Shown here: positions 1,989-48,456 of the stretch, in pieces
Position numbering within the stretch: the first letter of the stretch is position 1
How the letters are laid out: each line of letters opens with the position of its first letter
From: Actinotalea alkalitolerans
GTDB taxonomy: Bacteria; Actinomycetota; Actinomycetes; Actinomycetales; Cellulomonadaceae
DNA length: 48,532 bases
Assembly: GCF_023369855.1 (NCBI RefSeq)
Contig: NZ_JAMBPP010000023.1
Location: 1-48,532 of the forward strand
Direction: 5' to 3'
The notes under the pieces: generated by a model
Databases searched by the model: none
What the model was told of the DNA's origin: nothing
Seen by the model: the letters and a program-made list of their open reading frames with translations, nothing else
Translations under genes and position numbers: made by a program

Positions 1989-3008
1989 ATGCGCGCACTC
2001 GTCATCCACGGCCGGAACGACCTCCGCGAGTCCGAGGTCCCGACTCCCGAACCGGGTGACGACCAGGTCCGGGTGCGCATGGCGTACGCCGGGATCTGCG
2101 GCTCCGACCTGCACTACTACAACGAGGGCGCCAACGGGGCCTTCGTCGTGCGCGAGCCCCTGGTACCCGGGCACGAGGTCAGCGGCACGGTCGACCTGGA
2201 CCCCTCGGGCTCCTACCCGCCCGGCACCCCGGTGACCGTGCACCCCGCGACCTTCGGCGTCTGCGAGCCCGGGCTCGAGCAGCACCGCCACCTGTGGCCC
2301 CACGGCGCCTACCTGGGCAGCGCGTCGACCATGCCGCACACCCAGGGCGGGATGAGCGAGTACCTGCTCGTGGCCCGCGAGGCGATCCGGGTGCTGCCAC
2401 CCACCCTGCCGCTGCGTCGTGCAGCCCTCGCCGAGCCCCTCGCGGTCGGGCTGCACGCGGTCGCGGTGGCCGGTGGGGTCGGGGGAAGACGGGTGCTCGT
2501 CTCCGGCTCAGGCCCGATCGGCCTGCTGGCCGCGGCCGCGGCGCTGGCGTCGGGCGCGGCCGAGGTCGTCTGCACCGACGTGCTGCCCGGCCCCCTCGAG
2601 CGAGCCCGTGCCCTCGGCGTCCAGGGGACCGTGCAGGTGGGCCAGGAGAGTCTTCCCGAGTCCCACTTCGACGTCGCGATCGAGTGCTCAGGAGCGGCGC
2701 CGGCCATCAGCGCCGCGATCGTCGCCGTTCGACGCGCCGGCATCCTCGTGCAGGTCGGCATGATGGCCGCCGGACCCCACCCCATCGCCCTGGCACCGCT
2801 GGTCGCCAAGGAGATCCAGCTGCGCGGCTCGTTCCGCTTCAACGACGAGATCGACGAGGCCGTGCGCCTGCTCGACTCGACCCCCTCGATCGAGGCGGTC
2901 GTGACCCACGAGCTGCCCGCGTCGAGCGCCGTCGAGGCCTTCCGCACCGCCACCGACTCCGCCGGCTCCGGCAAGGTCCTGGTCAACCTCTGGCACGACC
3001 CGTCCTGA
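1989..3008 (+). CDS. idnD: L-idonate 5-dehydrogenase-like zinc medium-chain dehydrogenase
   Basis: 339 residues. It matches the idonate/sorbitol dehydrogenase group of medium-chain dehydrogenases: catalytic zinc ligands in GICGSDLHYY (C37) and PGHE (H62, E63), the family phrase AEPLAVGLHA, the Rossmann motif GSGPIG (172-177), and LRGSFRF near residue 280, typical of IdnD. It would oxidise L-idonate to 5-ketogluconate. The structural-zinc lobe is eroded: residues 85-105 contain one Cys (C92) where four are usual. ATG 1989 follows AGGA (1977-1980) with 8-base spacing; the frame is open further upstream but that part has no ribosome site. The ketogluconate reductase IdnO, needed to link to gluconokinase, is not in the window. 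The exact substrate is therefore inferred. Confidence 0.85.
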   Translation: MRALVIHGRNDLRESEVPTPEPGDDQVRVRMAYAGICGSDLHYYNEGANGAFVVREPLVPGHEVSGTVDLDPSGSYPPGTPVTVHPATFGVCEPGLEQHRHLWPHGAYLGSASTMPHTQGGMSEYLLVAREAIRVLPPTLPLRRAALAEPLAVGLHAVAVAGGVGGRRVLVSGSGPIGLLAAAAALASGAAEVVCTDVLPGPLERARALGVQGTVQVGQESLPESHFDVAIECSGAAPAISAAIVAVRRAGILVQVGMMAAGPHPIALAPLVAKEIQLRGSFRFNDEIDEAVRLLDSTPSIEAVVTHELPASSAVEAFRTATDSAGSGKVLVNLWHDPS

Positions 3009-3019
3009 CCGAGCCCCCG

Positions 3020-3079
3020 CCGAGATGGGGCTTTCCGTCGCTTTCCCGGAGCGGATAGCGACGGAAAGCCCGACCTCGG
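3020..3079. repeat. long palindromic element, copy 1 of a dispersed family
   Basis: A 15-bp perfect stem, GGGCTTTCCGTCGCT (3028-3042) with AGCGACGGAAAGCCC (3057-3071), has a 14-base loop; pairing continues outward, imperfectly, to CCGAG/CTCGG at 3020-3024 and 3075-3079. It lies between the convergent idonate dehydrogenase and acetyltransferase genes. A second copy at 23245-23304 keeps the arm ends but carries compensating base-pair changes. It could act as a bidirectional terminator or as a REP-like element. Confidence 0.8.
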
Positions 3080-3104
3080 GCTACGGCAGGCCCTGGACGC
3101 GCGG

Positions 3105-3701
3105 TCAGGTGGTGGACGGGCGGTCAGGGGCTGTCGTGAGGCGGGCGAGCAGTCCGGCACGCACGTCGGGCCACTCGGGGGCGAGGATCGAGAAGTAGGC
3201 GGTGTCCCCGCGTGAGCCGTCGGCCGCGAGACGGTGCCCGCGCAGCACACCCTCGGCGACCGCCCCGAGCCTGCGCATCGCGGCGACGCTGCGGGCGTTG
3301 CGGGCGTCGGCACGAAGGGCCACCCGGTGCATGTCCCAGCCGTCGAAGGCGTGGGTGAGCAGCGCGAGCTTGCACGCGGGGTTGGTCCGCCCGCCCCACC
3401 ACCCCCGGCCGTAGAAGGTGTGGCCGATCTCCAGGCGCCGGACGGTGCGGTCGACGTCGTAGAAGGACGTCGAGCCGCGCACCTCGCCGGAGGCCTCGTC
3501 GACCACGGCGAACGCGTACCGCCCCGGGGTGGCCAGCGCCGCGTCGACCCAGGCCGTCAGGTCTGCCACGCCCCGGGGGACGGGGGTGGTCATCCCGGCC
3601 CACAGCGGCTCGTCGATCAGGCCGAGCAGCGCCTCGGCGTGCTCGTGGCCGAGCGGCACGAGCGCCACACCGTGCGTCGCGAGCCTCAGGTCGTGGTCCA
3701 C
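3105..3701 (-). CDS. GNAT family N-acetyltransferase (RimJ/RimL type)
   Basis: 198 residues from GTG 3701. The protein has the acetyltransferase_3 layout: an N-terminal LATHGVALVPLG strand, a central RRLEIGHTFYGRGWWGGRTNPACKL region, and the terminal ALRADARNARSVAAMRRLGAVAEGVLR segment, all usual in RimJ/RimL-like enzymes that acetylate protein N-termini or small amines. GRGWWG sits where the acetyl-CoA pyrophosphate loop is expected. Residues upstream of GTG 3701 are Arg/Cys-rich and non-homologous, so that start is used. It lies 67 bases downstream of another acetyltransferase-containing gene on the same strand. The acceptor substrate cannot be told from sequence. Confidence 0.85.
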   Translation of the reverse strand: MDHDLRLATHGVALVPLGHEHAEALLGLIDEPLWAGMTTPVPRGVADLTAWVDAALATPGRYAFAVVDEASGEVRGSTSFYDVDRTVRRLEIGHTFYGRGWWGGRTNPACKLALLTHAFDGWDMHRVALRADARNARSVAAMRRLGAVAEGVLRGHRLAADGSRGDTAYFSILAPEWPDVRAGLLARLTTAPDRPSTT

Positions 3702-22035: not shown

Positions 22036-23058
<1,023 letters not shown>

Positions 23059-23244
23059 GAAGACTCCTGCTGATCAGAGGGGTGGTGTTCGCGGTCCATC
23101 GTGTCACGGATCACCCCCGGCACGCCGGGACCTCTCGCCGCGCGAGACCCCCGCCGACGACACCCACGTCCACCCCCACGCGCCGGGCACCGCCCACCCG
23201 GCCCTCACGCGCACCAGCGCCCAGCAGCCCGTCCCGACCCAGCG

Positions 23245-23304
23245 CCCAGATGGGGCTTTCCGCTGCTTTCCCGCTGCGGTAAGCAGCGGAAAGCCCCATC
23301 TCGG
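23245..23304. repeat. long palindromic element, copy 2 of a dispersed family
   Basis: A perfect 20-bp stem: GATGGGGCTTTCCGCTGCTT (23249-23268) pairs with its reverse complement at 23281-23300, around a 12-base loop. Arm ends are the same as in copy 1 at 3020-3079, but the TC/GA pairs in the middle of the stem are CT/AG here, so pairing is kept by double substitutions. It lies in the 305-base gap between the methyltransferase and fba genes. Confidence 0.85.
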
Positions 23305-23305
23305 C

Positions 23306-23355
23306 GGGCGGGCGGGCGGGAGCGCGTGCGGGCGGGCGGGGTGCGGGCGGGCGGG
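23306..23355 (+). other. G-run tract able to form G-quadruplex structures
   Basis: Ten runs of three or more G occur within 50 bases, beginning with four perfect GGGC units (23306-23320). Loops are one base in several places, the most favourable quadruplex geometry. It joins directly onto palindromic copy 2 and lies between a methyltransferase gene and fba. Together these two account for most of the 305-base gap at 23059-23363; I see no gene there. Confidence 0.6.
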
Positions 23356-23363
23356 TCGAGCGC

Positions 23364-24005
23364 TCAGGCGTGCTGGGCGATCCAGGCGTGCATCGCGATC
23401 GCTGCGGCGGCGCCGGCGTTGATCGAACGGGTCGAGCCGAACTGGCGGATGTGCAGGACGTCCTGGCAGGCCGCTCGCGCCTCGTCGGAGAGGCCGACGC
23501 TCTCCTGCCCGAAGAGCAGCACGCACCCGCGTGGCATGGGGTAGCCCTCGAGATCGACCGAGCCGGGCAGGTTGTCGATCCCCAGCAGGGGGAGCCCGGC
23601 GTCAACCGCCCACGTCACGAGCTGCCCGACGTCCTGATGGTGCCGTAGGTGCTGGTAGCGGTCGGTCACCATGGCTCCGCGTCGGTTCCACCGCCGTCTT
23701 CCGACGATGTGGACCTCTGCCGCCGCGAAGGCGTTGGCCGTCCGCACCACCGACCCGATGTTCAGGTCGTGCGCCCAGTTCTCGATCGCCACGTGGAACG
23801 GGTGCCTACGCGTGTCGAGATCCGCGACGACGGCCTCGAGGGTCCAGTAGCGGTAGCGGTCCACGACGTTGCGCCGGTCACCCTCGGCGAGCAGCTCGGG
23901 GTCGTAGCGCCGGACGCCGTCGACGTCCAGCGCCGGCCACGCAGCAGGACCTCCGGGCCACGGCCCGACACCGACCTCGACCGGACCGGCCTCGCTCTCA
24001 GTCAC
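23364..24005 (-). CDS. TrmH/SpoU-family RNA 2'-O-methyltransferase
   Basis: 213 residues. SPOUT knot methyltransferase using S-adenosylmethionine. Motif 1 is NIGSVVRTANAF, motif 2 LLFGQESVGLSDEA, motif 3 RSINAGAAAAIAMHAWI, in the right order. The N-terminal extension (about 1-70, ending VVADLDTRRHPFHVAIENW) is typical of the actinobacterial homologues encoded near fba. The target, tRNA or rRNA, cannot be told. GTG 24005 overlaps the permease stop by 8 bases, so it may be co-transcribed with the ABC exporter. Confidence 0.9.
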   Translation of the reverse strand: MTESEAGPVEVGVGPWPGGPAAWPALDVDGVRRYDPELLAEGDRRNVVDRYRYWTLEAVVADLDTRRHPFHVAIENWAHDLNIGSVVRTANAFAAAEVHIVGRRRWNRRGAMVTDRYQHLRHHQDVGQLVTWAVDAGLPLLGIDNLPGSVDLEGYPMPRGCVLLFGQESVGLSDEARAACQDVLHIRQFGSTRSINAGAAAAIAMHAWIAQHA

Positions 24006-48303: not shown

Positions 48304-48312
48304 ACCGACCGG

Positions 48313-48353
48313 GGCCCGTGCCCTGCCGAGCGGCTGCCGGCAGGGCACGGGCC
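48313..48353 (+). terminator. strong hairpin terminator after the glycosidase remnant
   Basis: GGCCCGTGCCCTGCCG (48313-48328) pairs perfectly over 16 bp with 48338-48353 around a 9-base loop. It is the strongest stem of the plus-strand side and sits immediately behind the truncated gene, as its original terminator would. Confidence 0.8.
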
Positions 48354-48420
48354 TCGTCTCGCCCGACGTTGTGGGGCCGCGCATGGTCGTGCAAGGCGCA
48401 TCCCACTCGAAAGCGGACAG

Positions 48421-48456
48421 CAGAAAGGGCCACCCCTCACGGGGTGGCCCTTTCTG
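48421..48456 (-). terminator. rRNA operon terminator
   Basis: CAGAAAGGGCCACCCC (48421-48436) pairs perfectly with 48441-48456 around the 4-base loop TCAC. On the minus strand the stem is followed by TTTCTG, directly downstream of 5S rRNA, the usual place of the rRNA operon terminator. Confidence 0.85.

Follow-up and report, generated by a model that had tools for sequence, protein, structure and literature searches.

An apparent REP/RPE-like family of 60-bp palindromes in Actinotalea alkalitolerans and other Cellulomonadaceae

Two palindromes 20 kb apart in a 48,532-nt window (the whole stretch of Actinotalea alkalitolerans DNA that was analysed) raise the question of whether they belong to a mobile repeat, terminate transcription or bind a protein, and whether their fold is under selection. 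Both stand at the coordinates and in the intergenic gaps given by the original prediction, the latter upheld by gene calls (Table 1), and their outer arms are exactly identical (GGGCTTTCCG...CGGAAAGCCC, spacing 24 nt). Folded as RNA, they reach -44.8 to -50.8 kcal/mol (z -7.7 to -9.4), which none of 200 shuffles equalled. The exact 10-mer GGGCTTTCCG is found in the window only within the two palindromes (n = 4), and with up to two mismatches it is not enriched there (52 matches, 60.8 expected). The sole Rfam match in the window at gathering scores is 5S rRNA, and copies of the element in L021, L017 and L016 remained unmatched to E 1. Beside the minus-strand 5S rRNA gene that ends the window, we also observed two strong inverted repeats (48310-48356 and 48421-48456) that are probably rRNA operon terminators.

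Table 1. Positions of the palindromes, their flanks and neighbouring genes in the window, and loci of palindromes with CGAGATCGG ends elsewhere
Feature	Position	Strand	Property
Palindrome copy 1, 60-bp dyad	3020..3079	.	RNA fold -44.8 (+) / -47.2 (-) kcal/mol
Palindrome copy 2, 60-bp dyad	23245..23304	.	RNA fold -47.2 (+) / -50.8 (-) kcal/mol
Left flank of copy 1, C-rich, overlapping ADH gene 3' end	2960..3019	+	Mean G-C skew -0.22, three 20-nt bins
Right flank of copy 1, G-rich, overlapping acetyltransferase gene 3' end	3080..3139	+	Mean G-C skew +0.32, three 20-nt bins
Left flank of copy 2, C-rich	23185..23244	+	Mean G-C skew -0.35
Right flank of copy 2, G-rich, GGGC repeats	23305..23364	+	Mean G-C skew +0.44
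Zinc-binding alcohol dehydrogenase family gene, 3' end 11 nt ahead of copy 1	1989..3008	+	Gene call and Pfam
GNAT acetyltransferase gene, 3' end 25 nt past copy 1, convergent	3105..3701	-	Gene call and Pfam
SpoU-family RNA methyltransferase gene, 3' end 59 nt off copy 2	23364..24005	-	Gene call and Pfam
Class II fructose-bisphosphate aldolase gene, start 186 nt off copy 2, tandem	22036..23058	-	Gene call and Pfam
Palindromes with CGAGATCGG ends	L107, L068, L137, L115, L154, L163, L066, L162		

The genome holds not two but 18 copies of a fixed-length 60-bp dyad, as revealed by a covariance model search. The exact core (GGGCTTTCCG, 24 nt, CGGAAAGCCC) has 11 genomic copies, all of 44 nt even with spacings of 20-40 nt allowed, and arms with up to three mismatches in 20 arm bases at fixed length yield 17 copies (reversed-pattern control, 0). 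The covariance model was built from these 17 copies; the 18th was found later and is absent from the 17-copy alignment. Among the 150 of 1,807 first-look candidates that were scored, the weakest strand score of any copy is 57.3 bits and the next candidate scores 16.5 bits. The full dyad reads CCGAGATCGGGCTTTCCGTCGCTTTCC, then a centre of 4-6 nt, then the inverse, with ends (CCGAGAT...ATCTCGG) that pair in the consensus. Mean divergence between copies is 19% and every copy is unique, so the family shows no trace of very recent movement.

Half-site matches with up to two mismatches in the whole genome all lie inside full dyads (32/32), and at exactly three mismatches 14 lie outside dyads compared with 3 in the reversed control. 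Neither solo halves nor a parent insertion sequence sharing the dyad ends was found in the genome with up to two mismatches; BLAST of copy 1 against plasmids and phages and a search of viral contigs with one exact pattern were likewise without a match. All 18 copies lie on five of the 35 contigs (C11, C15, C22, C31 and C32; 1.45 of 4.37 Mb), often 0.8-2 kb apart. On the G017 chromosome (4495 kb), at least 7 of 11 anchors could be located, every one of them between 115 and 2087 kb, a suggestive pattern.

The two window copies differ in mid-stem by TC/GA against CT/AG, originally taken as compensated change and thus as selection for the folded form. The other copies in this genome do not bear this out: across 17 aligned copies, paired cells are at the shuffled level (87.2% vs 87.7%), as is the covariation score (0.079 vs 0.078), and only one of three copies with CT in the left arm, window copy 2 itself, has the AG partner, the other two keeping an uncompensated GA. 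Pairs 24/37 and 25/36 are each unpaired in 9 of the 17 copies. The constraint lies in the sequence, with 27 of 60 columns invariant where 6.7 are expected if the 130 substituted cells are spread evenly (maximum of 16 in 10,000 draws); substitutions avoid the arms, and the constraint exceeds what pairing alone needs.

Paired substitutions do occur in related subfamilies of other genera, where pairing is conserved as the original prediction requires. The two-sided cells number 37 against 13.7 shuffled in 15 aligned copies of genus g7 (genomes G621, G622, G618, G623, G615 and G619; the G623 copy L316, of differing sequence, was left out) and 18 against 8.1 in 12 copies of g8 and g23, with 0 of 500 shuffles as high in either set, a comparison in which kinship among sequences alone can outscore the shuffles. 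A further measure in g7, that of further pair types, is not raised (12 vs 12.6 shuffled). Template-switch repair is an alternative cause of the two-sided changes.

We categorized the copies by the orientation of their neighbouring genes, using gene calls from a small codon-usage script (the 18th copy, L019:17491, was placed from that gene list). In this genome 16 of 18 copies are intergenic, of which six are in convergent, seven in tandem and three in divergent gaps; the remaining two are in frame within genes. The 41 copies inspected in other genera comprise 23 convergent, 14 tandem, 1 divergent and 3 unclassed, and 37 of the 38 classified copies adjoin at least one gene 3' end. Relative to control gaps, all 56 of which come from this genome and none from other genera, convergent placement is in excess both here (6/16 vs 7/56, p 0.03) and in other genera (23/38 vs 7/56, Fisher p 1.2e-6). 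No copy in other genera is wholly within a gene, and two overlap a gene 3' end by 11-12 nt. Position-independent scatter inside coding regions would have spoken against the original prediction; the scatter is instead position-dependent, mainly at gene ends and in support of a REP-like dispersed family, although two of the 18 copies do lie within coding regions.

The sequence around the copies is skewed in this genome and in its congener G014. C-rich left and G-rich right 60-nt flanks (both skews >=0.15) accompany 15 of the 18 copies in this genome and 7 of the 8 in G014, compared with 3 of 56 control gaps measured mid-gap. A polymerase on either strand reaches C-rich sequence ahead of the hairpin. 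Some left flanks consist of C-rich tandem repeats (for example CAGCCC x10 at L023:6393-6453), and the skew may be a rut-like signal or a product of slippage. It is no family trait, being found at 6 of 41 copies in other genera (p 0.12).

One of the two intragenic copies lies in frame in a linker of gcvP, whose reading frame stays open through 985 residues and whose halves on both sides of the palindrome match solved glycine dehydrogenases. This copy is a clear case of palindromic DNA translated as protein. The linker, from DETTT to YRSET, has 94 residues here and 61 in G018, G004 and G005; elsewhere it has 64 (G002, counted manually), 79 (G001), 82 (G012) and 96 (G014), with 7 of 11 loci readable by script. 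That the linker varies in length anyway counts against reading the length of the insert as evidence of mobility. The other copy is in frame in a linker of a LysE-family gene (Pfam, 60.7 bits). Counted by eye, this linker exceeds those of G014 and G016 by about 31 residues; comparison of this protein with the PDB gave spurious matches only. The peptides encoded by the palindromes in the gcvP and LysE-family genes are RDGALRRLPAEESDGKPDLG and PDRPFRRLPAADSDGKADLG.

The gcvP linkers of G014 (L259, G014:C48:120300-121300) and G012 (L236, G012:C72) carry an insertion of another kind, in which an inverted repeat (14 or 17 bp, read by eye) encloses a core. The repeat sequence differs between the species, whereas the core, GTGGTGGGCCTGGCAGGCGRCCGCGACGAAGGAGCGG, is common to both and occurs in only these two places among 264 loci examined, one of the two being represented a second time as L247; Rfam gave no match for either insertion. 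We also observed a glycine riboswitch ahead of the palindrome-carrying gcvP and a guanidine-III riboswitch nearby (L021:2953-3050 and 971-1033).

An exact-arm search of 99 genomes (this one and 98 relatives) detects the element in this genome only. With the model, congeners give eight places in G014 (two of them weak, 31-33 bits), one in G003, weak matches only in G002, G007, G015 and G017 (E 0.001 to 0.009) and no match in 12 others. Across the family, 28 of 221 genomes, this one included, and 8 of 25 genera have matches at E <=1e-4 under stricter filters. The 41 copies from other genera come from 22 of the 25 matching genomes besides G000, G014 and G003 (G550, G057 and G568 were left out); they are 56-60 bp long, with one of 70, and their arm sequences vary between genera and at times within one (g20, g21). 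In g8 and g23 (L302, L307, L297, L299 and L300) an extra partial arm, CGAGnACGAGGTTCCGCG or similar, lies just outside the palindrome on one side, resembling an unpaired tail by eye.

A scan of named genomes with the 9-bp ends alone returned at least 117 stretches, most of them resembling coding coincidences, and we rejected it as too loose for evidence of kinship. Among the matches listed, 20 or more symmetric pairs are present in 15, which fall in 14 loci; actinomycetes account for 12 of these loci, perhaps by chance. Palindromes with CGAGATCGG ends and differing interiors occur in Microbacterium, Geodermatophilus, Frankia and Phycicoccus, through kinship or chance (Table 1). A class-level scan (50 of 394 genomes) is as loose and carries no conclusion.

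Loci in congeners suggest that the copies were added to existing gene neighbourhoods. The SpoU-aldolase gap that holds window copy 2 here is shorter and has no strong palindrome in the five congeners with readable synteny (G002, G006, G018, G017 and G014); most others have a different neighbour, the L217 locus was misread and the L209 locus is partial. In G015, SpoU is followed by another hairpin, of 44 nt. The locus C11:27013-30326 has four copies interleaved with three genes, whose order is wholly or partly kept in six congeners. A hairpin finder that detects three of the four known copies found no copy of the element in 15 congener stretches, nor did the model search of the genus find the element at the counterpart loci. 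Because congeners keep the genes without the elements, it appears that the elements, not the genes, arrived at this locus, and because conserved congener neighbourhoods are without the element, the family acts as an inserted, dispersed repeat.

Other hairpins, of 30, 34, 46 and 61 nt, occur in 4 of those 15 stretches. In G004 (L334, G004:C88:1-13000, between 622 and 2095) a 61-nt palindrome, TTGAGATGTC...GACATCTCGA, at the matching locus is perhaps another species-specific family. In the DNA examined around the G014 copies, no gene directly beside a copy has an ortholog directly beside a copy here. The members of one gene pair (84% identity) are, in both genomes, found 5-7 kb away from a copy. 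Direct repeats of at least 3 nt at the dyad edges, as a target duplication would leave, flank 1 of 18 copies compared with 1.76 by shuffling, a test that true ends beyond the 60 bp would escape.

Our best reading is of a new actinobacterial palindrome family resembling REP and RPE elements. We think it probable, if well short of certain, that the family is a non-autonomous, dispersed one of the REP/RPE/MITE kind that has been copied to new sites and serves in 3'-end gaps as a probable bidirectional terminator. A trans-acting, sequence-specific protein would recognise the 60-bp dyad, and we propose such a copying protein because the arm sequence is invariant and the copies are dispersed. The dyad would then be copied to new places, usually gaps past gene ends and twice in frame within a gene. 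In 3'-end gaps a long hairpin would form in transcripts from both sides and probably act as a bidirectional barrier or terminator, a two-way stop proposed because of the 3'-end bias and the hairpin.

The RAYT transposase suggested as the mobiliser by the original prediction finds no candidate here, as a PF01797 (Y1_Tnp) search gave 0 matches in this genome and matches in 5 of 14 control genomes. We also rejected a DUF559 endonuclease for this role: only one of five such genes (three here, two in G014) is beside elements. The sharp family edge, from 57.3 to 16.5 bits and with no decaying copies, is unexpected of a mobile repeat and in keeping with a functional site. A bolder form of the mobile reading, possible in our view and rather doubtful, would make the family an undescribed class of actinobacterial mobile palindromes whose arms shift between genera yet stay symmetric. 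A non-Y1 enzyme would move them, their C-rich approaches here and in G014 would load Rho and make them portable bidirectional terminators, and they would enter genes in frame since translation shields the element.

The evidence from gene ends also bears on another account, in which the copies are bidirectional terminators that share their sequence through gene conversion or inter-locus copying, not transposition, and the C-rich, G-poor 5' side on both strands is a possible rut-like Rho-loading site. This would explain the 3' ends adjoining 37 of 38 classified copies in other genera, the RNA hairpins of -45 to -51 kcal/mol and the flank skew here and in G014. We consider it unlikely, however, as neither window copy has a T-tract, the sequence is constrained beyond pairing, two copies are within translated genes, and the skew fails at most copies of other genera. 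The three copies in divergent gaps fit a terminator poorly, and the same 3' ends in the examined congeners lack this hairpin, some having another (G015 after SpoU; 4 of 15 C11-locus stretches). Less likely still, a regulatory or chromosome-organising protein would bind the dyad, each arm of which would carry two half-sites at a spacing of 10 bp (GCTTTCCGTC GCTTTCCG). The invariant arm sequence, the two halves that vary independently as a protein site would, the confinement to five contigs with close spacing and the G017 anchors speak for such a site, whereas the places are unshared with G014 or other examined congeners, the strong symmetric change in other genera fits a hairpin better, and regulator sites seldom favour 3' ends.

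The symmetry itself could be kept by template-switch repair (quasi-palindrome correction), so that paired changes would reflect a mutational process and not selection on the fold. Within one genome of the g7 group, arms do change block by block between TAAG/CTTA and GGGG/CCCC, but the mismatches that persist here at pairs 24/37 and 25/36 do not suit such correction, and we hold it improbable to about the same degree as a protein site. Elements that alternate with genes, as the four copies and three genes at C11:27013-30326 do, might also be attC-like boundaries of gene cassettes. This we regard as extremely improbable: the AP_endonuc_2, GDSL and FAD-protein genes keep their order in several congeners without elements, and the DUF559-like gene is present in two of six. 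Gene cassettes are refuted at that locus, as the genes are not the mobile part.

In the open-access literature, a library outside which most subscription journals fall, we found no paper on such elements in Cellulomonadaceae. We compared the palindrome family with systems described elsewhere. Like intrinsic bidirectional terminators, it places a strong hairpin between convergent genes; unlike them, it has no T-tract, has a conserved sequence and also occurs in genes and divergent gaps. With MITEs that have fused terminal inverted repeats it shares a non-autonomous, dispersed, inverted-repeat structure, but it has no target duplication, and a terminal repeat standing alone was not found in the genome at up to two mismatches. 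The Rickettsia palindromic elements are about 150 bp long and nearly half lie inside ORFs, according to a review of MITEs (PMC10969869). By that description they resemble our family in their in-frame insertion in protein genes, here gcvP and the LysE-family gene, whereas our elements are 60 bp long and lie in genes in 2 of 18 copies here and 0 of 38 classified copies in other genera.

The closest likeness is to REP elements, whose GTAG and CGTC superfamilies are defined by an unpaired GTAG or CGTC tag, as the available portion of Di Nocera et al. 2013 (PMC3733652) has it. Such palindromes are there mostly from Proteobacteria, the GTAG type being linked to RAYT transposases, and that portion makes no mention of Actinobacteria, Cellulomonas or Geodermatophilus. 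Going by the same text, REP elements share with our family short dispersed palindromes that mostly occupy intergenic DNA, chiefly convergent and tandem gaps close to 3' ends, with some copies in ORFs, families confined to one or several species, and dimers that may make long hairpins. Each copy of our family is by contrast a single 60-bp dyad without the GTAG or CGTC end tag, CGTC being present only within the arm, and this genome has no RAYT. We set the element apart from REP, given the absence of the unpaired tag and of any detected RAYT. A family that is present in 8 of 25 Cellulomonadaceae genera and stays symmetric despite its shifts in sequence, and for which the single genome searched has no Y1 enzyme, would suggest that palindromes can also spread by a different route.
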